Assembly (NCBI GenBank): GCA_000310025.1
Contig: FN649739.1
Location: forward strand, 3,238,476-3,302,475
Source: Ectocarpus siliculosus
Lineage: Eukaryota; Sar; Phaeophyceae; Ectocarpales; Ectocarpaceae
Length of the DNA stretch: 64,000 bases
Direction: 5' to 3'
Of the stretch, positions 35,776-49,734 are shown piece by piece. A program made the translations under genes and the position numbers. The notes under the pieces are model-generated. The model searched no databases. It worked only from the letters and a program-made list of their open reading frames with translations, and was not told where the DNA came from. Every line of letters starts with the position of its first letter. The first letter of the stretch is position 1.

Positions 35776-38604
35776 CGGTGCAAGTTTCTGTCTACCACGG
35801 AGTCTCTTTCAAGCCCATCACGCGAGAGGCATTGAGTCGTTGATTGTGTAAGAGATATGCTGTCAAGGGGGTTTCTTTGTGTGTTGTAATGGTTCATCCA
35901 GCAGGTTGCGGTGGTTGTTCGCTGTCTGTTGCAATGATTCTATCTGCCTGCCTGGGACGTTCGTGGGGGTTCGCGGGTCTGAGGCCACGTCACGTTTTTG
36001 CACTTTTCCGGACCGGGGCCGCGTGGGGTGGTTGGCGTCCGACTTCAAAACAAACGCAAGAGCACCAGAAAAATGCACAACAGACACAAGACCAATCAGA
36101 AGGCATGGCGAAAACAGAAATATTTGATTCTCGCACACGGCGACAGTAGAGGCTGCTCAATACTTACGTTTCACGCGTCTACCTCCACACGCCTCTTTTG
36201 AAATAAAAAAATACGCCATTTTAAATTCAAGTCAAGATCGGCAACGGCGGCCTGACCTGCAGTAGTGGCGGGGGCGGCGGTATCGATGACGGGGGGAACG
36301 GCAGCGGCGGCAACAGCAGCGTCGTCCCCGGTCGCCGCGTTGGCGCTGGGCACTCAGACGGACGCAGCGGCGATGGCGGCGGCGGCGGCGGCGGGGGGGG
36401 GAACGGCAGCAGCGGGAGCGGCAGCGGCGTCCCCGGTCGCCGCGCTGGCATCGGAAGGAGCGGCGGCGGCGCGGATGGTTTCGGCCAGAGCGCCGTCCCC
36501 GACAGCAGCATCGGCGGTGGCGGCATCGGTGACGGGGGGAACGGCAGCGGCAGCAGCAGCTGCGGCGCCCCCGGTCGCCGCGTTGGCGATGGGCACTCAG
36601 ACGGACGCAGCGGTCTGTGGTGTTGAGACTGGGGACTATGTTATCCCAGGAACAGCAGATGAAAAAGGACCATGTATTGTATATATCCGTCACGCAAGCC
36701 CCTCAGGCAAGCTGGTATTCAACACGCAAGCCCCTCAGGCAGGAGCACACCGCCGTGTGCTCCCGGGGGCCTCCCACTTGGACCACAACAGCATACATAC
36801 CCTCACACCCATACTTCCCATACGCGTATCCCCCACACAGGATGCACAGATCGGACTCATATCCAAGTACCACAAACACGGTCCGTGGCGGTGAGCGGTG
36901 AGCACGGCTGTGACAAATGTTGGATTCCGCTTGGTTCTGGCGCAGATTTCGAGCTGTTTTCAAAGGCTGCTGCGACCATCGATATTTCAGTAGCGAACTT
37001 TGACGTGCCAGCACGCACAACGCCTCATTATGGTATCCTCTACTGATGACAGTAGAATGTGACAGATATTTCCGTCGGGAAGGCTGCTTTGTTTTTTTTA
37101 TTGGATTGACTTATGAAAACAGAGCCAGCGTCAAAATCACGTGTTCTTCAGCGTTCTTTAATTATTGTGGGTAATGCCGACTCCCTCCGAAGTTTGTTGG
37201 AGCGAGACTTGGCGAGACACCAAAAAGATTGCAAGAGAGCGGACGACTGACTGTCGTGTGCTACTTTCATCGAGGGGACTTAGAGACGGAGTTGTGCGTG
37301 AGGATGTGATTGGTAGACCTGCGTTGTGTGCAGTATCGATCGTTGGTGTGGATAAGATGTACCAGGTAATGTAGAACGTGCCCATTGTATATATGCATGA
37401 GCAACGGGTATCGTATGTTTATGTACAGAATTTTTCGTACAGGACGAAAAATATTGTTTGCCACTCTTGCGTCGCCATTATACATCCCAGTCCACAGGAG
37501 AGGAGGCACAAGGACGATTGGATCCCGAACGCACGGAAGCATCGAAACAAATCAACACGGTATTTATTTATCCCTCTCTGTACTTACCAGACCTCTTGCT
37601 GTGAAGAGAGCCTACAGGGTTATATGTCATGTAGGCTTGGAGAACGGGGGCGATTTTTTACTGGTGGTGCATGAAAAAAAAAAGAAAAAGGAAAAGGAGG
37701 AAACCCCGGGTTTTTAGGAAGAGTTCTGCGATCCGTCACGTGTTTGACTCAACCTTACTCGACCATCTCGCCCTCGATTAACTCGCGAGTTTTTGCACTA
37801 GATGCGCAAAGAAAGCCAGTACCCTGGATGGACTGCTGTGAGCCGTTTAGGCACCCTGACACATAGTTTGTTTGATTTTGACGAGCCACTTCTATGACAT
37901 ACCACATGGCATATATCATACACACACACATACATGCATGTACGGTGTGACTTTCTCTCTATCCAACAGCGTGACCACCAGTATTCGGGTAGCATGCAGA
38001 GAGCCCGCAGCCCGCACTGCATGGGAGTAAGTAGTAGCCGTCGCGAGCAGAGCACAGGACAATGGCGGGCGCTGTGCCTCGACAGATCATCATGCACAGA
38101 GGATGAGAAAAGATCCAAGTTAACCCTTACGTGACTACACCCCCGAATCGGGCATGTTAGCAGGCACGATAACTCTTATATGCGACAACTTTCGAACCGA
38201 ATTGAGCTGTGGATACCTGCGTCGACGACGGCTCGACGGTACGACTAGACCGCTCGAAAAGAAACAAAGTAACGACCGGGGACAGAAACAGCACGTCCCC
38301 TATACAGAAAATTGAAAGCCTGGGAGTTGCAATGCTCCGCAGCACCCTGCATCCCGCGCTGCTGCTGTGCTGCTGTGGACCTCAGTCCAGCACGCAGAAA
38401 CGCGATAATGATGCTGTTTTTCCTCCTGCTTGTTGCGATTTTTCGCACGAGCGCTATGGACGGGGTTCCCTGTGTATCACGTTCGCAAGGAACAGGAGCT
38501 AGCTCCCCAGCCGGCTGCGTTGGGCCAACGGGTACAGCAGCACATCGATGGATCTGCGTCGCGCATCATTTGCAGCACATAATTGACAAGAGGTGGGAGG
38601 GGTT
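35776..38604. other. Intergenic region between the pseudogene and the OTU-piggyBac gene
   Basis: I see no supported gene. It contains a GC-rich alanine-codon repeat (36245-36615), a 27-bp direct repeat at 36690-36741 (two copies of ACGCAAGCCCCTCAGGCA plus flank) and A-rich tracts near 37674-37700. One copy of a 21-bp word is shared with 48688-48708. The promoter of the transposon gene should lie at the right end. A TTAACCCTTACGTGA word at 38119 resembles piggyBac termini, but I could not find its partner. Confidence 0.45.
36245..36615. repeat. GC-rich imperfect repeat (alanine-rich when translated)
   Basis: Three related units begin with GGGGGAACGGCAGC and contain CCCCGGTCGCCGCG (about 36291, 36398 and 36537). 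The first and third also share GGGCACTCAGACGGACGCAG. Read on the plus strand the repeat is Ala/Gly-rich with GTQTDAA at two places. The frame is open on several strands because of composition, so coding status is undecided. Confidence 0.6.
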
Positions 38605-41600
38605 ATGGTCTTGCCCGACCGCGCTGGTGTGTATACCGTAAAGCCGGATGGCCACTGCGGGTTTAGTGCGATGTCCGCGGGTCTGCAGGTTTGCCTCGGT
38701 AGAACAAGGGCCGCCCCCACCCCAGAGAACATGAGGAGCGTGGTCGCCCGTCGAGCCACGGAACATGTTCTTGGCGCATCCGGTGTTGAGGACTTGACAG
38801 CTGTACTCTCACCAGACCAGCTTGGGCGGGCCCGGAGTGTGCGTATACCGGATGTTTTAGGAGCTGCCGTGGAAGAAATGACGGCGCCGGAGGATAAGAC
38901 GGTCGGTTGGTTTCGCGAGAAAGCCCAGCTAAGTGCAACAACAAAATGGATTGACGTGACCTGGTTCTCTTTTCTGGCGTCGGAGTACGGGGTGAACATC
39001 ATGTTGTGGGAGCCAAGCCCCACGTACGGCACAGTTCAGCCGTACTCAGCAGCCCTCACGGCAGGCATGTTCTTGTTCGAGAAAAAAGACAAAATGGACG
39101 AGGAGGGGGATCGCTGGGTGCATCTGCTCTATCGGAAACACGACGATCCGTGGGCAGCGCGCGAGGGTGTAGGTGAGGCAGGCCATAAACAGCACAACCA
39201 CTTCGACCGTCTGCAGCTTGGACTCAACGTACATACTTCCTTCATCGATGTCGTCAGAGTTGCAAAGGAGAAAGCGCTAGGAATGGCGGCGCCGGTGCCG
39301 TCGGCGAGCGCCACGGCCGGGAAGAAAGCGCCAGGGTCCGCAAAGGTGGACGGAGAAGAGGTGGACGATCCCGAGTTCAGCATGAGACCAAGCGGCAGCA
39401 ACAGCAACAAGAGCAGCAGCAGCAGCCGGCAAGCGCAGGGAAAGGCTGCAGCGGGAAAGAAAAGCAAGGCGAAGATCGGGAGTAAGGTCGGGGTGAAGCG
39501 ACCAACCGGAGAGGCAGCCAGGGGACAGCAAGAGGCACAAGGCGGGGGGTGCACCGGGGAAGCAGCGCAAGGCGGTTGGTGTGCCGGGGAAGCGCAAGGC
39601 GGGGGGTGCACCAGGGGAGGGGAGGGGTGCCGCAAAGAAATGCAAGAGTACGCCGACGGGTAGGAGGAAATCGGTGAAGAGCAACGGCCAAGTAGACGAA
39701 GCCAACTATGATTCCGACGGCAGCATCGGGGGGGGGGACCACGAGCGAACCCAGGGCTCCTTCGCTAGCATGTCGCAGAACGACAAGAAGGTGGTGGCCG
39801 CCATGAAGAAGATCCAGGAGCTCAAGTACAGGCGGGCGTACTTGCTGAGCAACAAGAGGAGGGCGCGGGGTCTAAAGGTGGGTTTGTGTTCGTGTAGACT
39901 TTTCTCTTGGCATTTTCCAGGCGAATAGGCGGACCTAAGAGAAGACGACGATTTATGGTGGTGCAAAAGTTGAGTCCGATAAATAGTGCGAATCAATACT
40001 GCTGTAGCAGTTTCTTACGTTTTTTTTTTCGCTTGGAATACCGAGTAGAGAGTGCCCTATCAACGCTGAACAAACGCGTGTCTAGGTAGGCACTTTGTTT
40101 CGCCTCGTGTGGTCGCTAGTCTCTACCAAAAATAATCTTAGAAGTGTTGGTAAAAAGCACCTGGTTGCTTGCATGATCATGTTGACGCCTCCGTGCCTGG
40201 CTCCTGTTGCTCAACACGGGTGTGGTTTCCAATGTTGGCAGGGGGGCAACGAATGTCGAGTTCACGATTCGGAGTATGTAAATGCATGTGCGTGACCTGA
40301 ACACCCTACTGGCCCTGTATGGTGTTACTTTTGATCGCCGTGTCAGTTTCATGTGAATCTCTCGCTCGCTCGATTCGTAGGTGTTAGTGACACCGTCGCC
40401 TCGTACGACTTTATTTTTTTTCGGATGATTGAACACAACACGGCAGGGTATGAATTGACACACCTGCCGCTCTGTTTCCGCTGTTTGCCGACGACGTGCT
40501 CAACCCAGCTCAAGGCCATACGCGACAGGGAGAACGAGAGGCTCAAGAAAGCGGCAGAAAAGGAAAAAAAAAAACAGCTTCGGCCGCGGCAGGAGGTGGA
40601 GGAGGAGGAGCGACAAGAGAGAGAGGAGCTAGAGAAGCAGCAGCAGCAGGAGCAGGAGGAGTTGAAAGCTGAGGCGGAGGAGTACCCGGAGGTGGCGTGG
40701 ACTGACCGCGGCATTCCTGACTTTGCGGGAACGACGGACCACAAGAAGAGAACCCGGCGGCAAGCGGTCAGCGCTGCTTCGCTGTCGGCGTCCGCGCGAT
40801 AGAAGTTGCCCTCTCTCGATACCTTCATGGGCGGCCGCGACGAGAACGGAGAGTTCCCGCTGAGTGGTTTGATGAAGACGTGCTTCAACATGATGTTCCC
40901 CGACAAGGCAGTAGATCTTTTCGTGCAAAAGGTGAGCATTGGTGTTTTCGTGTGGTCGCATTCCTTATTAAGTTGCACTCGAACAACTCACTAGGGGGGT
41001 TGCACGCAAGTAAGAGACCGAGCCGTTATGCGTCGGACTTGAAAGTAGTTCCGCGGGAAGGGGGGGAGGGGGGGGGGCGGGATGAATTGTATGCCCTTTG
41101 TTGGTGTTTACACTGCATGATGTCGTCTGCATGCCTTGGTCGCCTAATCATACTGGCCGAATGTAGATCACAGCTCATCAAGATTGTCAAACACACGGGG
41201 GTTTATGCGGTGTTCATGCATACTTCCCTCCTGACGTGCTACGTACCAGCGTATCGTGCATGGGGGTGGTTTGCAAGGGCGGGATGCAATACCGCGGAAT
41301 GTACTCCCTGTAGAGAAGCACCCTCCCCCCCCCCTATCCAGCGCGCGGGATCCCTGTTATGTATGTTGTAATTTGATTACCGATATCCACCCGACCAACC
41401 CAACAATTGAAAGCGGGTACTAGGTAGATGCCTGAGAACACAGTCTGTTGTGGCCCCTTGCGGTATTGCTTACGTTCCAAGACACCCGCGGAAGGCGTAT
41501 GCGGATTAATTTAATCAAACATGTCTGTGCTGCCACGGCTTGCATCAACAATCATTGTGTATATATACGACACCTCGGCGCGACCTCTGGGGCGAATATG

Positions 41601-44600
41601 CTAATCTTCGCTCCGTCTTGTTGTCCCTGACCTCTTCCGCGCGAAACGTGATACTTTTCCAGACCAACAAGTACGTGAACCTTTGCACCACACCACCACC
41701 CCCCGGAGCTACGGAGAAGCGCAAGGAGCATCAGATGAAGAAGACGAGAACTCTAGGCAGGGTCACCCTGCCGGAACCCGCATTCGAGCGCAAGCACATC
41801 TACGGCATGCTGGGCATCACGATCACGATGGGGCTCACCAAGAAAACGCGCATGAGGAAGCACTGGAGTAGATCGTTGCACGACGACTATCCTCTAGTGA
41901 GGGCGTGCATGCCGCGTGACTTGTTCGAGCTGTTGTACTGCCGTTTCATCCACTGCTCGGACGGCAACGCTCCTCCTCGATTGTTGGACGAGGACAACAC
42001 CCCTAACCCGGACTTCGATTCGAAGTGGCACATCAGGTGAGTTTTACCCGTCGGAGACTTCGAGCGTTCTGACTGTTGGACCACGCTCCTCCATTTTTTC
42101 ATGTGGTGAAATAAAACGGCCTCCAAGCCGGCAAGTACCCTAGAATCCAAATCCAAAGGGTTCATGTCGTTGTACCTGTCGTTGCCCTACACCACCCGCC
42201 CTCCCCGTGGAATACTACACGTGACCACTACAGTAGCGTACAGTTGTACACCACCCGCCCTCCCCGTGGAATACTACACGTGACCACTACAGTAGCGTAC
42301 GGTTGGGATGATCATAGCTACGGACTAGCGTGGTTGGTGTGTGTAATCAATAGGCGAGCATTCGTATGTCCGTTCGTGTCCCACGAATGTTCTACAACAG
42401 ATTAACCAACGCCACACCTCCGTGCTAATCTTGACGTCGCTTCACCGGCAGAGAGCTCGAAGACATCTTGAACACCGCGTGGACGGAAAACATGGACTTC
42501 AACCAGTGGCTGTGCTACGACGAGCAGATGGTGAAGACTGTGTCGAGGTACGCGCACTTCCTCATGAGACACCAGCCCAAGAAGCCCATCACCCACGGTA
42601 CGCGGTTTGTGTTTCGTGTTGTATGGACGATTCCTGCCGACTGTGTGTTTTCCTTGTGACGGCCTTGCGGTGTGAGGGCTCGGCGGCTGGGGACATGGGC
42701 GAAGACCTTGTATAGTATTCGGTTTTTAAGGGCCACCATGTGGTGGAGTTGTCATTTTTGCTTTGTGGAGTTGACCCCCCCCCCCTCTCCCTCTACTGGA
42801 AAAATAGGAGCAGGAACATTTGGCGTTTAGGTCACATGAAGAAATCATGCCCGTGGGCATAATCCAAAGCTCGATTGCTACACAGAGCTCGGCGGTGCCG
42901 AAAATGGCGGAGCTGGAACCGTCAATGACTGTCCACGAGTTTCAAGCGGCAAACTCGAATAGAGTGCAAACGGGCACGATTGACTGCTGCGCCGCCTTGT
43001 TAATTCGCTCCACCATTTTTCCCTATTCACGTTGTTCCAATGCAGGCGTGAAGATGCTCGCGATCTGCGACGTCGCGGGGTACTGTTTCGTCAGCAGCGT
43101 CGAGGGTGGATTTTCGGGGGATCCCAAGCTGAGGAAGTGGTCTGACTGCCCTCTGGGACGGACCACTCGGCACGTTCTACATGTCCTGCTCGACGCCTGC
43201 AAGGAGTTCGGTGACAAAATCGACGGCTCTGGCGTGCACATCGCAATGGACAACTACTTCACAAGCCCGACACTGTTCGAGTGTCTTGCGGGCCACGACA
43301 TCTTCGCGGTGGGTACGTGCCGGGTTAACCGAACCGCTGGCGCGATCCCTTTCTTGCAGAGCCTCGATCGCATCCCCGTCAAGCGGGGAGACATGCACTT
43401 TGCCCGCGCCGGCAATGTCGCATTCGTGCAGTGGCTCGACTCGAAGGATATCATCCTGTGCAGCACCATCCACCTCGCGCAACCTCGCGCCGCCATCGGC
43501 CAGCCCAAGAAGGAAGACGACGACGGCGGCGACGACCATTTCGCACCTCTACCTTACAGGTGACCTTTTTTGTTGTTGTTGACCAGATTCATGTTTTTAT
43601 TTCTGCGTCTTCATGTCGGATGCCTCGCTCGAGTAGCATGTCGGTCAAACTGGTTCGTGCAAAGGTTGATGGAGTTCAAAGTTTGGTGTTGCCAAAATGC
43701 AGCGGCTCGGGTTCATGCCTTTAGTATTCGGTTCGTCACACAGGCTGTTCTCACCGACCGGGAACGTGCTTGGGGCTTGAGCATTGTAGTGTTGACAGGG
43801 GCTGATGCTACGCCGGGGTAAAAATAGGTTGCTACGTCCGACGACCTCCATCCAGTTCGTCGTCGCCGCAGCCGCAAGTGTGGTGCCTGACCCATGTGTT
43901 CCGCCTGCCCCCCGCCTGCCTGCCCCTTTTCGTGCGTGTCCAGCCTGCGCAAAGCTGGGCAGAAGGGGAAACCCATGGAGCTACAGCAGCCGTGGATGCG
44001 TAAGGATTACGTGGCCAACATGGGGGGAGTAGATACGGCCGACCAACAGAATGGTTCCCACGCCCATGACCACAAGGCGTGCACGAACCACTGGCGGCGA
44101 GTGATGGAGGCCAAGATTGAGCAGACGTTCACCAACATTTTCGTGATGTTCAAGGCTTTGGTAGCCTTCTGGGACGGTGAAGCGAAGGAGAGGCTCGAGA
44201 GAGGAGACCTAGACCTTGAGTCGTCGATGGAGTTGGAGGGAGTGGTGAAGGAGCTCCGCAGGTTGGCCAATCTTGAGAGGTCGGACTGGGACGAACAGAT
44301 GTCGACGGAGCTCATGGGGAGGTGCGGTGTTGGTAGCCTCAACAAGGGGGGGAGACAGGTCAAAGATACGGAACCCCCGAAGGACGTTTGGGGGAGCGTT
44401 CACATTAAGACAAAACGCAAGTGCATGTACCCCGGATGCAAGAAAACGACAAGAAAAGGGTGTGCCTGCGAGGCGTTCTGCGGTGCAGGGCGGGAGGGGG
44501 GCGGGGGGGTTTTGATGTGCAAGGGATGCTTCGAGAACCCGGCGAGGCACGCTAGGGCCGCACGGGCTGAACGGGAGGCCTCGAAGTTCGGAAAAAGGAC

Positions 44601-44628
44601 ACGGAAGGATATGAACTGGTGCTCGTGA
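38605..44628 (+). CDS. OTU-protease/piggyBac-transposase fusion gene, 6 exons, disrupted
   Basis: Exons 38605-39877, 40509-40931, 41663-42036, 42452-42597, 43046-43559 and 43944-44628 join in phase. Residues 1-205 look like an OTU cysteine protease: Asp15-Gly-His-Cys18 in an OTU-type motif and His199-Phe-Asp near the end. A basic Lys/Gly/Pro repeat linker and a Glu/Gln-rich coiled coil (exon 2) follow. The rest is a piggyBac (DDE_Tnp_1_7-type) transposase. Candidate catalytic Asp codons are 42519 (YDEQMV), 43249 (MDNYFTS) and 44032 (GGVDTADQ). A C-terminal Cys-rich zinc-binding domain (CMYPGCKK, CACEAFC, MCKGCF) ends the protein. The expected length is about 1137 residues. Two defects are visible: a one-base shift at the G6 run 39544-39549 and an in-frame TAG at 40800-40802. 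piggyBac enzymes cut at TTAA; the role of the OTU part is unknown. Confidence 0.87.
39535..39627 (+). repeat. 30-bp tandem repeat in the linker of the transposon gene
   Basis: Three units of about 30 bp, each built on GCGCAAGGCGG...GGTG and CCGGGGAAG, encode a Lys-Ala-Gly-Gly-Ala-Pro-Gly type basic linker in the frame used downstream. The first unit contains the G6 run (39544-39549) where the OTU frame and the transposase frame part. Confidence 0.75.
40800..40802 (+). other. In-frame TAG stop inside exon 2 of the OTU-piggyBac gene
   Basis: The frame reads SASAR, stop, KLPSLDTFMGG and then continues in the same frame into clear transposase sequence (FPLSGLMKTCFNMMF). There is no intron of credible length that would remove it; the only gt/ag pair would give about 35 bp. 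It is therefore a nonsense mutation, a sequencing error or a recoded stop. Confidence 0.75.
42188..42305. repeat. 59-bp tandem duplication in an intron of the transposon gene
   Basis: 42188-42246 (TACACCACCCGCCCTCCCCG ... GCGTACAGTTG) is repeated at 42247-42305 with a single A/G difference. Near identity means a very recent duplication. Confidence 0.9.
42864..42960. mobile_element. Remnant of a TACCGTA-type MITE interior
   Basis: The stretch with TCCAAAGCTCGATTGCT, GGTGCCGAAAATGGCGG and GGAACCGTC matches the interior of the 29521-29751 element (TCAAAGCGCGATTTCT, GCGCCGAAAACGGCGG, GGAACCGTC). No intact ends are seen. It lies in the intron before exon 5 of the transposon gene. Confidence 0.5.
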
Positions 44629-47122
44629 CCGTTTTTTGTTGTTGTTGCGAGTGTTTCGGGCGGAGGAAACAGGGATCGACTCGTGTAAGGGTCCCTTGAC
44701 ATATTTTTTGGCAGGCAGACTGATCGTAGCGCATCATCTTCCCGTCCGTCATGAAAATGTTTTACTCCGTCGTTTACCTGTTGTGTCTTCCCGATAGCAG
44801 TGGTATTATAGTGTGGGGCGTTTGTGTTGTGTACTTGTTTACCACCCATCTGTATCATGTAGCGGTCGAAGTACGATCGTTTTCATCCTTGCGAGATAAA
44901 GTGCAAGTTACTGAATCACAATATTGTAGGTCTTTTATTCCGCGCTATTTCTGAAAGCGTGTGTCTTTAGAGTCTGAAGCGTCCTCCGGGATATGCGGTG
45001 AAGAGTGCTTGTCGGGCAACTGTTGGTGGGCGCCGGCGGTGTCACCTGCGGTAGTGAGTTTTTAGCCCCCCCCCCTTTAGCCCCCATTCGCTTGTGACTA
45101 CTGTCAGTGTTGTTGCGATTAGCCACGGCTCGTGTATCGCTCGTTGTGTGTCGTTTTTAACCCGAAACCTATGTGGCAAGAGCCTTAGGTTTGGCGTCGG
45201 TATCCCGTGCTTTGGTCGACAGACATGTTCGCACGTAGACAAGGAATGGAGTACGAAGTGTACAAGGTTTGCAGATACCAAGGTTTGCAGATAAAATCGA
45301 AAGAAGTCTTCGGCATCTAGATAAACAACGTTTTCCTGGCACTTTAGTTTTTTCACTGCGTGCGGTGTAGTCTAGTCCTTTCGTGCGACAACGTCATACA
45401 CACCACGTGCCGGTGGTGCTCACCAGTAGTTCAGAGACCGCAAACGGCATCGGAATCCAACCGTGTGCCAATGACAGACATTCCGGAGACCTTCATGCGA
45501 TCAAGTCGTGAATACTTGCAAGATCATTTGTTCCATGTTTATTCCATTTCTTCATCTCGAAACCAAGGCGCTGATCTCTGCGAAAATGCAATACACATCT
45601 CCCGGCGAGTGCGCCTGCAACATGCGACGAAACATACGGAATTTTCAGATCACACCATTGCACCATCGGTTGTTCCACCGAGTTGTGCCTTGCAGCACTC
45701 TTTCTCCAAATAACCCCAGCGAATTGAATGACAAACCCAGCGAACTCAAAGTCATGCGGGGGCACGACGCCCTGCAAACTAGCCAAGCGCAAACCTTGAG
45801 GTTCTGCTCGAAACTCTTGTAAGTACGAAACCCTCTCCACCCCCCCACCCCACCCCTCAGGCTCCATGATCAGCCTAAAACACGCGCTCGAGAATCACGA
45901 CAATGCCTCCGCAATGGCCGCTGGTATGGCTTCGTCTCCCGGCCACACCGCGCGGCACGCCTGCGTGAAGCAGTCCCTCCTCGTGATTTGAACGCCACGA
46001 CCCCTCGCGTTGAGGCGGGTGCTCACGTCGAACGAAGCCTGCACGTTGCGGGGGAAAAAACGACGACGTAGGCTTGTTTTTTTAGAGCGTGCACTCCAGT
46101 CTTTCGTGGGAAAATGGAGAGCCAACAAACGTTACGTGGCATGCAGTATCTGTGAGAGACAGACGTTCACGCAATGGGGCGGCGCGTGCGTCTTTTTCTC
46201 CGTTCGGACTACTAACCGCCCGTTCGGATTACAAAACCTAACTTCGGACAAGACAGAAAATTATGCTCGGGCCTCCCCAGTACATCGTTACCCCTACTGC
46301 TGTCTAATGCGGGGAGTACAAAGCTGCGGGCTGCCAGCCTATTCGTACGAAATGGGAGAGTCTCCAACCTAACTGATACGGAAGATAACACCATATCTGT
46401 CTCAAAAGGGGAGTCGACGCGCTGGGCGCCGCTTGTCTTTCCAGAGCATTTGCTGAGCATTGCGGAGGTTCATAGGGATAGGGTTGCTGTAAACGCGTCT
46501 TTCAGGTCTCTCATCCCTCTTTCCTGTCTACTTCGTGTGGTGATATGATCTGTCTGGCAGCTGCATTGATCCGCAGGCTCGAAAAACACACGCACGTTAG
46601 TCCAGGTTGAAGTTTGTGGGCCTAGTGTACTGTTGTAGCACTCTTACAAGCCACCATGTCAAACAAAGCTGAACGTGAAGCACACCTATAATACACGAGG
46701 TGCAACGCGCACAGCAGGTGCACAACCGATCTGGGTCAGCAGCCCATCATTTGTGGGGTTGCCAAATATCAATTGTACTATACTTACTTGATTCCTCAGA
46801 CGCTTCGCTGTGACCTGCCCCCCCGAGCTCCTCTCGGCTGCCTTTGAGAAATCTACATCCCCGATCCAGCGGGAGTGGTGGTACCCGCAGAGTCCGGGGT
46901 GCTGCTGAGCTGCGGTCCTCCTTGCTGCCAGGTCCCTTATGTCTGGGAGGGGCTGGGGCTCGTTGTCCCCGTGGCAGCAGAACCGCTTCCCAACCGCCCT
47001 GGCTGCAGCAGATGTCGCCTCGGGCAGGAGCTGGGGTGTTGTGTCCGCGATGAGAACCAGCTCGTACCACACAACTAGGGGAGCATTCACTGGGTCCCAC
47101 TCAGCCGCTTTGGCCTCCCAGA
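44629..47122. other. Gene-poor region left of the assembly gap
   Basis: This holds the 3' side of the transposon gene and then no supported gene. A GC-rich stretch at about 46800-47122 stays open for over 100 codons on the minus strand up to the gap (containing CGYHHSRW). I recognise no family in it and cannot separate it from composition. No convincing right terminal repeat of the transposon was found. Confidence 0.45.
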
Positions 47123-47654
47123 NNNNNNNNNNNNNNNNNNNNNNNNNNNNNNNNNNNNNNNNNNNNNNNNNNNNNNNNNNNNNNNNNNNNNNNNNNNNNN
47201 NNNNNNNNNNNNNNNNNNNNNNNNNNNNNNNNNNNNNNNNNNNNNNNNNNNNNNNNNNNNNNNNNNNNNNNNNNNNNNNNNNNNNNNNNNNNNNNNNNNN
47301 NNNNNNNNNNNNNNNNNNNNNNNNNNNNNNNNNNNNNNNNNNNNNNNNNNNNNNNNNNNNNNNNNNNNNNNNNNNNNNNNNNNNNNNNNNNNNNNNNNNN
47401 NNNNNNNNNNNNNNNNNNNNNNNNNNNNNNNNNNNNNNNNNNNNNNNNNNNNNNNNNNNNNNNNNNNNNNNNNNNNNNNNNNNNNNNNNNNNNNNNNNNN
47501 NNNNNNNNNNNNNNNNNNNNNNNNNNNNNNNNNNNNNNNNNNNNNNNNNNNNNNNNNNNNNNNNNNNNNNNNNNNNNNNNNNNNNNNNNNNNNNNNNNNN
47601 NNNNNNNNNNNNNNNNNNNNNNNNNNNNNNNNNNNNNNNNNNNNNNNNNNNNNN
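47123..47654. other. Assembly gap (532 undetermined bases)
   Basis: Run of N. Translations that cross it are meaningless. The flanks are a GC-rich stretch on the left and a TGC/CTG microsatellite-like stretch (GCTGCTGCTGCTGGTGCTGG) on the right, so a repeat probably caused the gap. Confidence 0.99.
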
Positions 47655-49734
47655 TGCGGCGGGCTGCTGCTGCTGGTGCTGGTGCTTTTTCATTTCGTTT
47701 CGCATGCATGCATCCAACAAACAAACCGCGTGCGTGTGTGCTTCTTGTCTCCGCTGGATATATCACCCAACCAAGTGGCATTGGAGGCGGTGCCATGCCT
47801 TGCGCCAGTGTGCTGCATCGGCGGCGGGGTAGAACTGCTGTGCATGCGATGTATCTCTACTGCTGCTGCTGTATCCATGTAGACTATCACCATGTAATCG
47901 TGTTTGGGGTAAAGAAATACGGCGCCCTCTCCTCTCTCTCTCCTCCGGTTTCCGACAGCACCTACATACAGCAGTACAGCAGTCAGTGTAGTTATCGGTC
48001 ACTCATCACATTCTTCACGTGAGGGTTACGCTGCTGTTGGGCACTAAACCTTTGTGGCACCATGGGGTGCGTGCGGTTGACCCATGTGGGAACCTGTTGG
48101 TGCGCAAACAAACGTGCAAAAGTTCAAGTGCGGGTGTCGTGTGTGTGTGTCTCATGACTCATCGGTCTATTCGGTCCCGGCAGAACAAAAAAAAACGCGG
48201 AAGATCCAGAAAGAACCCAGTCACTCTCCAACGGCCACAACTAGTCTTGCTTTTAAAACTCAGCAGACCAACCGCTGCGTCGTGACTAAATAAGTAGCAG
48301 GGCAAGGAACCAAGACCTGCTTGGGAAAGCGTGTGTATTGGTCTGAAAGGGTTCATTCGGCTGCCAGACTCTCTCTGTTTAGCCGGGGGGCGCACCCTCT
48401 ACTTTCTCTCTGTCATCAGCTGTCGTCGCATCAGCTTCGAGGCTCTCTGGTGGGCGGCGTACGCTCTCTCTCTCTCTCTCTCTCTGCTCTGGGTCGCTGT
48501 TGTTGCGGCAGCAGCAACCAGCTGCTAACACTCTTCATTGCTGGCGTGGTGACTGTTCTGTAGCGACTGTGTCCGTGGCAGCTGTGAGGTCTCTAACACG
48601 TCAAAGAGTGTTACAGTTGCTGTCGGTATTGGACATTTCCCCCCTCCCCCTCTATTTTCTATATATATGTCCAATACCGACGGAACGTGCACCACCAGTA
48701 AAAAATCGGCCTCCCCGGGACTGTCCATTTACAGGCACAACGAAAAATGCGATGTGGCGTTTGTCTGCAGATGACGGGCGTTGCTTCTTTTTTTTATGGG
48801 ATGCAAAGTCCGAACATCTCCATGTCAAAGTGTCCAACCCCGGAGGATTTCCATTTCCAAAGCTGTGAGAGGACTGGAGCATTGTACACCGGCCTTCCGC
48901 TGTGGATCCACCGTACAACAAGGTAGATAGGGAACACCCACTGGACGGCTTGCACTGGCGCCTGCGAATCGCTTTTTGTAGATGAACGCTGTATCACGCG
49001 AGCATCGTTCGTTCTTTTGTGCACATAGAACGCGCGCAGCTGGCAGGTGTTGTTGTTGCTCGAACTTGGAAGGAGCAGCGCACGTGGTGCAGAGAGGAAG
49101 AAGCGTGTAGTCGTGATCGAAGAAATAGGAAATACAACCCTCCGTACACATCCAAATTCAATCGAGTGTAACCCCAGGAGAGCAGAAAGCAACCGTCTGC
49201 GGCGAGTGAACATCGTTGGGAGCCAGTGCACAACCCTACGTACCTTACGTACAAGAGGCAACACAGGGAGGTGCTTTTGCAAACAAGAATCGGCGTTGCG
49301 AAGAAGGCGAGGACGGGTTTCATTGTAGATAACATCATCATGGAGCAGCGACACGCGCGTTGGCGCGCCCAGATCTGCTGCTGAGACCGTGCTGTCGAAG
49401 GCTGCAGCTGCGGCCCCAAATACCCACAAATCTGGGTAAAAAAACTGGGTCCAAAAACTTGGTCCACACATACCTACGCTGCATGTAGTACTTCGAATTT
49501 CACAACCCACCCCACCATGATGTACGTACAACCCGTAATTCAGGACAGTCGATCGTGAACGGTTTATTTCCCAATTTTCGGACATTTCGGGCCAAAGGTG
49601 CTACACCTTCTACAAGGCCCCAGCAACAGTAGATTTGTATGTGCTGTAGGTATCGATTCACCGCAAAAACAGAAAAAGATGAAAAAACGTGCTTCCACGA
49701 CCAAGAAGTAAATGTAGTCAGAATTACAGTGGGG
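47655..49734. other. Gene-poor region with microsatellites and a short inverted repeat
   Basis: It includes a (CT)n tract at 48462-48484 and a perfect 15-bp inverted repeat at 48622-48636 and 48667-48681 (GTCGGTATTGGACAT). A 21-bp word at 48688-48708 is shared, inverted, with 37652-37672. A 263-codon minus-strand open frame (48794-49585) has no recognisable domain and I do not call it. Confidence 0.45.

Follow-up and report, generated by a model that had tools for sequence, protein, structure and literature searches.

An OTU-like protease domain linked to a piggyBac transposase within a transposon of Ectocarpus siliculosus

Why would a domain resembling an ubiquitin-removing protease stand in front of a DNA transposase? 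This question is raised by a locus of Ectocarpus siliculosus within the window, that is, the whole stretch of 64,000 nucleotides analyzed here. OTU proteases remove ubiquitin, and piggyBac is a much-used laboratory transposon. The original prediction placed an OTU-like domain and a piggyBac transposase in one gene at 38605-44628. That interval does contain the fusion, but the element is larger, extending to about 48224. As for the interpretation, an OTU-like domain is indeed fused to a piggyBac transposase: the linkage recurs, dN is below dS, and the motifs are kept in four lineages.

The pairing and the element that carries it

The linkage of OTU and piggyBac is genuine, and both are parts of a single transposon about 10 kb long. 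A piggyBac match follows the OTU-like sequence, on the same strand and within 11 kb, at 23 of 34 OTU loci (63 OTU matches, merged by hand), and the pairing likewise takes in 23 of 35 piggyBac loci (merged matches, leaving out 11 short ones to query positions 56-119 and one at C19). Since uniform placement would give about 0.001 per OTU locus, a chance neighbor is ruled out. One further pair, C183, was found with its own query. The pairing extends over transposase subfamilies that are 60–76% identical and a lineage that is 40% identical; the other copies with both domains, on which the original prediction had staked itself, thus exist.

The order left end, OTU, transposase is that of the window in L016, L018, L019 and L020, where 547–568 bp separate the left end from the Asp of DGxC, compared with 527 bp in the window. 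L022 has a left end and an OTU-like sequence (487 bp), the transposase core not being read there. Because the OTU-like sequence lies inside the left end of the element in several copies, insertion of a transposon into a host gene is also ruled out.

The ends are those of a piggyBac element, with TTAA and short inverted ends of 13 bp with one mismatch, except at the right end of the window copy. That end is damaged: the terminal GAAAGGG followed by TTAA, as seen in L013 and L015, is absent after 48224, and GAAAGGGTT is found at 48345-48353, beyond the last matched right-end bases. Apart from the window, GGG followed by TTAA closes both copies with a readable right end. A second gene, ORF2, with the pattern C-x-H ... 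C-x-x-H-H, is conserved, lying convergent and downstream within 12 kb at 28 of the 35 piggyBac loci (53 ORF2 matches merged to 46 loci).

Table 1. Features of the window copy and its surroundings (positions in the window).
Feature	Position	Strand	Remark
TTAA target site	38120-38123	+	precedes left end in 6 of 9 copies, window included
Left terminal repeat CCCTTACGTGACTACACC, with TTAA	38120..38141	+	18-bp end without mismatch in all 8 other copies
5′ part of exon 1 in related copies	38408..38604	+	hydrophobic N-terminus MMLFFLLLVAIFRTSA and lead-in
Putative OTU-like cysteine protease domain	38605..39270	+	motifs and profile-profile match to OTU
Cys18 codon	38656-38658	+	OTU-like domain
His199 codon	39199-39201	+	OTU-like domain
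Exon 1 from the predicted ATG	38605..39877	+	OTU, basic Gly/Lys-rich linker, conserved YDSDGSIGGG
Exon 2	40509..40931	+	Glu/Gln/Lys-rich segment, coiled coil by eye
Exon 3	41663..42036	+	piggyBac transposase core begins
Exon 4	42452..42597	+	first catalytic Asp, 42519
Exon 5	43046..43559	+	second catalytic Asp, 43249 (MDNYFTS)
Exon 6	43944..44628	+	third catalytic Asp, 44032 (GVDTADQ); C-terminal Cys-rich segment
ORF2	46791..47122	-	convergent to transposase, cut by gap
Assembly gap	47123-47654		cuts ORF2
Last matched right-end bases CCCAGTCAC	48216..48224	+

Identity of the two domains

From its sequence, the transposase is certain to be piggyBac. Exons 3-6 give one 572-aa reading that matches PF13843 (DDE_Tnp_1_7) over residues 41-409 (105.3 bits, E 5.5e-30, cut-off 22.4) and piggyBat 9c0f (E 4e-7). 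The Pfam scan of these exons returned PF13843 only, and not the Gypsy-integrase-like transposase with C-terminal OTU or Ulp1 that marks Ginger1. The three catalytic Asp codons are exactly where they had been predicted, all within the PF13843 match and, the first lying in YDEQ, in the sequence contexts of the piggyBac catalytic residues. The piggyBat alignment is good around the second Asp, has a negative score around the third and does not reach the first. The Cys-rich tail is likewise present, as judged by eye.

The OTU assignment rests on motif order and profile comparison. The hallmarks of OTU proteases are a catalytic Cys in D-G-x-C and a His in H-[FYW]-[DN], and Asp15-Gly-His-Cys18 and His199-Phe-Asp share one open frame from ATG 38605, as had been proposed. 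Of 18 copies read, nine of them near-identical, all have DGxC and 17 have NHF, and the two motifs are conserved across four lineages. In divergent copies, DGxC, A-x-x-Y-x-V-N-I, HLLYR and NHFD follow one another as these four landmarks do in OTUs. When the profile was first compared with one host OTU and three Helitron-like ones alone, the match was weak (probability 20%, P 0.0012), and forced global alignment to the same four aligned nothing useful; therefore, a larger OTU reference was used. Against known OTUs, the profile then scored 37.8 (E 2.4e-5, probability 75%), with the alignment confident only around the Cys; none of 300 shuffles reached this score, and the reversed profile scored 11.5. 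Before the L043 lineage was added, the score was 32.1 (0 of 200 shuffles).

Could the DGHC and HFD motifs be coincidental, the domain not being an OTU at all? No database match rises above cut-off: Pfam OTU matches neither the window family nor any of four sequences from the L016 group; PF02338 shows up, below its cut-off, only in the C183 copy (12.5 bits against 23.3, E 0.21), and not in L043, a relative of that copy. PDB sequence searches with the OTU segment gave nothing relevant, and scans of viral contigs, using the window sequence and an alignment of the OTU as queries, turned up no relatives. The fold check that had been suggested, AlphaFold2 on the window domain with a single sequence as input, gave an uninformative model (mean pLDDT 29.9), and at default settings the profile match spans only 46 columns around the Cys. 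Such a coincidence is nevertheless highly improbable, since the four landmarks keep OTU order in divergent copies and the profile score exceeds all 300 shuffles and rose when L043 was added.

A related possibility is that the fold is OTU-like but non-catalytic, serving for ubiquitin binding or structure. The sequence is distant from Pfam OTU. The catalytic His is replaced by Tyr in L023, and the C183 copy diverges beyond NHF; after HF comes G in L020, I in L042 and S in L043. We consider a non-catalytic domain very unlikely, given that four lineages retain both the Cys and the His motif even though the window and the L016 group share only 34–37% identity in the domain. Other copies count against an intact enzyme: the Cys and His motifs are out of frame with each other in L010, L018 and L022, and L019 and L020 have stops between them.

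Between subfamilies, dN of the OTU-like domain is below dS, with dN/dS of 0.35–0.67, a weaker constraint than that on transposase exon 5 (0.13–0.42). Of the comparisons within subfamilies, one stands at 1.12. For the window and the L016 group, dS of the OTU-like domain is saturated, so that no ratio is given for that pair.

One protein or two, and the state of the window copy

The six exons predicted from the sequence hold in that all five introns are GT-AG. The claim of a phase-consistent model, on the other hand, fails in the window copy, where two changes are absent from eight near-identical copies: an extra G at 39508, which shifts the frame before exon 1 ends, and, in exon 2, a TAG at 40800-40802. 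The window copy is defective and unable to make the fused protein. ATG 38605 is probably internal, as relatives appear to start exon 1 near 38408. The stretch from 38408 to 38604 is open in five of the eight other near-identical copies, and similar N-termini occur in divergent ones; in L005 and L009-L012, the frame that starts at ATG 38408 stays open past the OTU Cys, with L010 then broken inside the OTU. In the window, three changes interrupt this stretch: an extra base at 38468 (also in L008), an extra G at 38599 and a TAA at 38580 that L006 and L007 have as well.

That no near-identical copy (0 of 8) has all six exons open counts against a working fusion, and introns separate exon 1 from the transposase core, as would suit two genes side by side with separate transcripts. 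However, the frame from the OTU to YDSDGSIGGG is uninterrupted in seven of the eight other near-identical copies and in L016, and this motif belongs to the transposase: L038, an OTU-less member of the same superfamily in the same genome, has the counterpart NYDSESELGGG. With the linkage kept across lineages as well, two separate genes are extremely improbable. L038 also rules out an OTU in every piggyBac of this genome. As L038 keeps the transposase start motif without the OTU, the latter looks like an N-terminal addition within exon 1, and the element may have captured it.

Possible roles and known systems

We propose, with about an even chance of being right, a two-gene piggyBac transposon whose OTU-transposase, spliced as one protein of about 1200 aa with the OTU at its N-terminus, would carry a deubiquitinase acting in cis. 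The OTU would strip ubiquitin off the transposase, or off proteins bound in the transposase–DNA complex, and the transposase may thereby last until the element has been excised and reinserted. Against this proposal, a nuclear enzyme would hardly be expected to have a hydrophobic, signal-like N-terminus.

Since the other half of the protein has to act on DNA, that N-terminus could instead suggest self-processing, in which the OTU cuts the long protein and frees the transposase from itself and from the hydrophobic segment. OTU-like proteases of some RNA viruses offer a precedent, and the OTU is followed by a long linker rich in Gly and Lys, in which GG recurs. The linker, however, is of low complexity and aligns poorly between subfamilies, and we find self-processing quite unlikely. 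It is also conceivable that the targets of the OTU are not the transposase itself but host proteins (histones, or factors of DNA repair or silencing) that the DNA-bound transposase brings within its reach, so that repair is eased or silencing countered. A DNA-binding partner would bring the protease to chromatin, and the accounts of Ginger1 and of Helentrons, as far as they go, propose a DNA-repair role for the OTU/Ulp1 of the former (PMC2836005) and a chromatin role for the OTUs of the latter (PMC4067079). Set against this is L038, a piggyBac that has no OTU in the same genome, and action on host proteins seems unlikely.

Going further with the cis-acting deubiquitinase, one may tentatively suppose, though we would sooner expect it to be wrong, a deep piggyBac lineage with an OTU of its own that predates the subfamily split (about 40% identity), was lost secondarily once, and is needed for transposition because it controls the ubiquitin carried by the transposase or by its complex. 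If true, this piggyBac would be the first known to carry its own deubiquitinase, and OTUs would have joined DNA transposons independently once more, beside the cases of Ginger1 and Helentrons. Ubiquitin control of transposition is an old guess for which the OTU-less relative offers a natural comparison; with OTU-bearing and OTU-less piggyBac in one genome, it would be open to a swap-and-mutate experiment.

Among the matches listed, in a search outside of which supplementary files and subscription papers lay, no description of an OTU on piggyBac was found. OTUs on Ginger1 (PMC2836005) and Helentrons (PMC4067079) have been published and serve as precedents for the present pairing, and ubiquitin/SUMO-system proteases are joined to several unrelated transposons, namely Ginger1, Mutator with Ulp1, and Helentrons; the reasons given for such joining in these accounts, in the parts that bear on it, are suggestions only (PMC2836005, PMC4067079). 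Ginger1 resembles the present element in pairing a DDE-type DNA transposase with an OTU cysteine protease whose function, as far as that account goes, is not established either. Its transposase, however, is Gypsy-integrase-like and its OTU or Ulp1 C-terminal (PMC2836005), while here the transposase is piggyBac and the OTU N-terminal, and, unlike Ginger1, the present element has a TTAA target and a convergent second gene. Helentrons and Helitrons also encode OTU-like proteases, but they are rolling-circle elements in which the OTU is borne by the Helitron ORF or by an additional one rather than by a cut-and-paste transposase (PMC4067079, PMC9741609); Helitron-type OTU ORFs occur in E. siliculosus as well (L029, L030, L033 and L036, the helicase part seen by eye). 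Mutator, as cited in PMC2836005, is a cut-and-paste transposon that carries a protease of an ubiquitin-like modifier, but Ulp1 is a SUMO protease, not an OTU, and the transposase is of another superfamily. With the piggyBac superfamily, the element shares the ordered catalytic Asp motifs, the TTAA target, short inverted ends starting with CCC and the C-terminal Cys-rich segment; to these, over about 10 kb, it adds the OTU-like domain, the hydrophobic N-terminus and the convergent second gene.

The transposon and its genes

The OTU-like domain stands N-terminal to a piggyBac transposase in an element of about 10 kb that begins at the TTAA at 38120 and includes an assembly gap of 532 N (47123–47654). 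In the 189-Mb genome (492 contigs), eight further copies are 99.2–99.9% identical to the window in the main aligned blocks, and the 18-bp left end is identical in all eight. TTAA lies 5′ of this end in six of the nine copies; L005, L008, and L011 differ. Of three copies used for the right end, L013 and L015 read CCCAGTCACGAAAGGG followed by TTAA, and L014 has N there. The ends are 13-bp inverted repeats with one mismatch (CCCTTACGTGACT and CCCTTTCGTGACT). The window copy can be aligned up to 48224 and then diverges from the others. Since GAAAGGGTT is present again at 48345–48353, 120 bp further out, a short insertion within the right terminal repeat of this copy (48225–48353) is possible.

Exons 3–6 translate to 572 stop-free residues, with a DDE_Tnp_1_7 match in Pfam (residues 41–409, 105 bits); the sole solved structure matched is piggyBat (9c0f, E = 4e-7). 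The three candidate catalytic Asp codons of the original prediction are found exactly where it placed them, at 42519, 43249, and 44032. Its six-exon model holds for the introns, all five being GT-AG in the window and in seven of the eight other copies (L010 has GA at one donor), while extra bases and a TAG disrupt the window frame. Its start, ATG 38605, is probably internal, as the frame is open already from ATG 38408 in five of the eight near-identical copies (L005, L009–L012). The protein from this ATG begins MMLFFLLLVAIFRTSA. In the lead-in, the L008 frame is shifted, and a stop at 38580 is common to the window, L006, and L007. In none of the eight can the frame be followed through all six exons. 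All exon lengths are intact in L005, which is interrupted by a premature stop; in L008, the reading is intact until its last exon, where the frame changes; L011 combines a single premature stop with a 9-bp deletion; and the remaining copies carry frame changes. Thus, the set read demonstrates conservation of the parts rather than the existence of a working copy.

Divergent copies from the same genome have hydrophobic N-termini resembling the MMLFFLLLVAIFRTSA start. Signal-peptide-like N-termini of this kind occur at 38408–38460, in L016, L018, L019, L020, and L022, and also in L038, which has no OTU; they are odd on a protein expected in the nucleus. Inspection by eye shows some 59 bp duplicated in tandem (ACACCACCCGCCCTCCCCGTGG..., 42189–42300) in the intron that separates exon 3 from exon 4. 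Part of the intron 5′ of exon 5 (42863–42926) is matched over short lengths at 11 further places in the genome and may be a small dispersed repeat.

The second gene, ORF2, begins MDPEDIAQFWEAK, carries a C-x-H ... C-x-x-H-H pattern, and has no Pfam match. Its 53 genome matches were merged by hand into 46 loci, and at least 28 of 35 piggyBac loci have it in convergent orientation no more than 12 kb downstream, including C91, C50, C137, and C16:1849347, where no OTU was found. It was also seen in L013, L014, L015, L044, L045, and L046, with a first exon of about 120 residues, judged by eye; its matches in divergent elements, whether these carry an OTU or not, are 38–69% identical.

Coordinates of genes and lesions in the window copy
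Feature	Position	Strand	Remark
Transposase exons 3–6	41663–42036, 42452–42597, 43046–43559, 43944–44628	+	
ORF2	46791–47122	-	right third of element, cut by assembly gap
Lesion, extra base	38468		also in L008, same place
Lesion, +G	38599		private
Lesion, +G	39508		private
Lesion, TAG	40800–40802		private

Identity of the N-terminal domain

The window family has no Pfam OTU match, and its OTU segment has no relevant PDB match. A single-sequence AlphaFold2 model of the window domain reached a mean pLDDT of 29.9, too low to speak for or against an OTU fold. The divergent C183 copy gives a sub-threshold PF02338 match (E = 0.21); its OTU-bearing relative L043 gives none. All 18 copies read have DGxC, and 17 have NHF, the exception being L023 with NYF; nine of these copies are near-identical, and the independent unit is therefore four lineages. 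In L010, L018, and L022, the two motifs do not share a frame; in L019 and L020, stops separate them.

Against a reference profile of ten sequences (pieces of OTUD1/3/5, four host OTUs, and three Helitron-type OTUs), the profile–profile score is 32.1, reached by none of 200 column shuffles (maximum 21.4). With L043 added, it is 37.8 (E = 2.4e-5; 0 of 300 shuffles, maximum 22.7; reversed 11.5). At default settings, the confidently aligned part is limited to 46 columns surrounding the Cys; a permissive setting extends the alignment across all four OTU landmarks.

Linkage, constraint, and age of the fusion

At the DNA level, the two domains are fused, conserved, and linked. The OTU exon has at least 63 genome matches, merged by hand into at least 34 loci, and piggyBac matches merge likewise into at least 35. 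A same-strand piggyBac match lies within 11 kb downstream of at least 23 of the 34 OTU loci, the expectation under uniform placement being about 0.001 per locus, and an OTU lies upstream of at least 23 of the 35 piggyBac loci; these linkage counts are lower bounds because only the best candidates were scored in the genome search. The C183 piggyBac was counted as OTU-less, yet it carries a divergent OTU. Among the 11 of 34 partnerless OTU loci, C219 is at a contig end. C234 keeps the left end and then passes directly to the region beyond the OTU, an internal deletion.

Between subfamilies, OTU dN/dS is 0.35–0.67, with dN ≥ dS in 35, 2, and 4 of 1000 codon bootstraps for the window against L020, L022, and L019, and in none for L020 against L016 or L017. 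Within subfamilies, it is 0.41–0.65 (11–260 of 1000 in four pairs), and L022–L020 gives 1.12 (637 of 1000); several of the copies in these comparisons have decayed, so that the ratios are drawn towards 1. Transposase exon 5 gives 0.13–0.42 in five pairs. These ratios indicate past constraint on the OTU, weaker than on the transposase.

Transposase identity to the window is 73–76% in L019–L021, 60–63% in L016–L018 and L024, 41–46% in L037–L040, and 40% in L041, the transposase of the C183 copy. OTU identity is 57–64% in the L019–L021 group (first matched segments) and 34–37% in the L016 group. The OTU profile picks up the C183 OTU (E = 8e-6) and finds none in L037–L040, of which L038 is the only clean OTU-less case: L037 has 3167 N among 7001 bases, L040 only later transposase exons, and L039 only exon 1 fragments. 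The unrooted tree splits L041 and L037–L040 from all others with bootstrap 100, and midpoint rooting places L041 outermost. The simplest history would be one early gain and one loss; two gains are also conceivable. Because L038 encodes NYDSESELGGG, which corresponds to YDSDGSIGGG at the exon 1 end of OTU-bearing copies, we take this segment as the conserved transposase start and the OTU as a probable N-terminal addition inside a single exon. By eye, exon 1 of L038 and L043 shares a small Cys/His-rich segment (C...C-G...C-x-x-H) before this start; none was noticed in the window family.

A proposed role for the domain among transposon-borne OTUs

We infer that the OTU is a protease and that its substrate would be ubiquitin carried by the transposase or its complex. 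By acting there, it would protect the transposase in cis, the explanation we favour because the two are read as one polypeptide. The second choice is that the OTU acts on chromatin or repair proteins; for Ginger1 transposases, which bear C-terminal OTU or Ulp1 domains, a DNA-repair role has been suggested (PMC2836005). Self-processing of the long protein comes third.

Helentrons bear OTU proteases (PMC4067079), and Helitron-borne deubiquitinases of another class (VTD) have been characterised (PMC9741609), the authors noting that transposon OTUs had as yet no activity tests. In Ectocarpus, the Helitron-type ORFs L029, L030, L033, and L036, and the similar L026, end in OTU domains passing Pfam's cut-off, their helicase part being recognised by eye; thus, two unrelated transposon kinds here bear OTU-like domains. 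The main text of a survey of Ectocarpus transposons describes four PiggyBac families without mention of OTU (PMC12477816), and no publication joining OTU to piggyBac was found among the matches listed in literature searches. OTU with piggyBac is, then, a new combination on a known theme.
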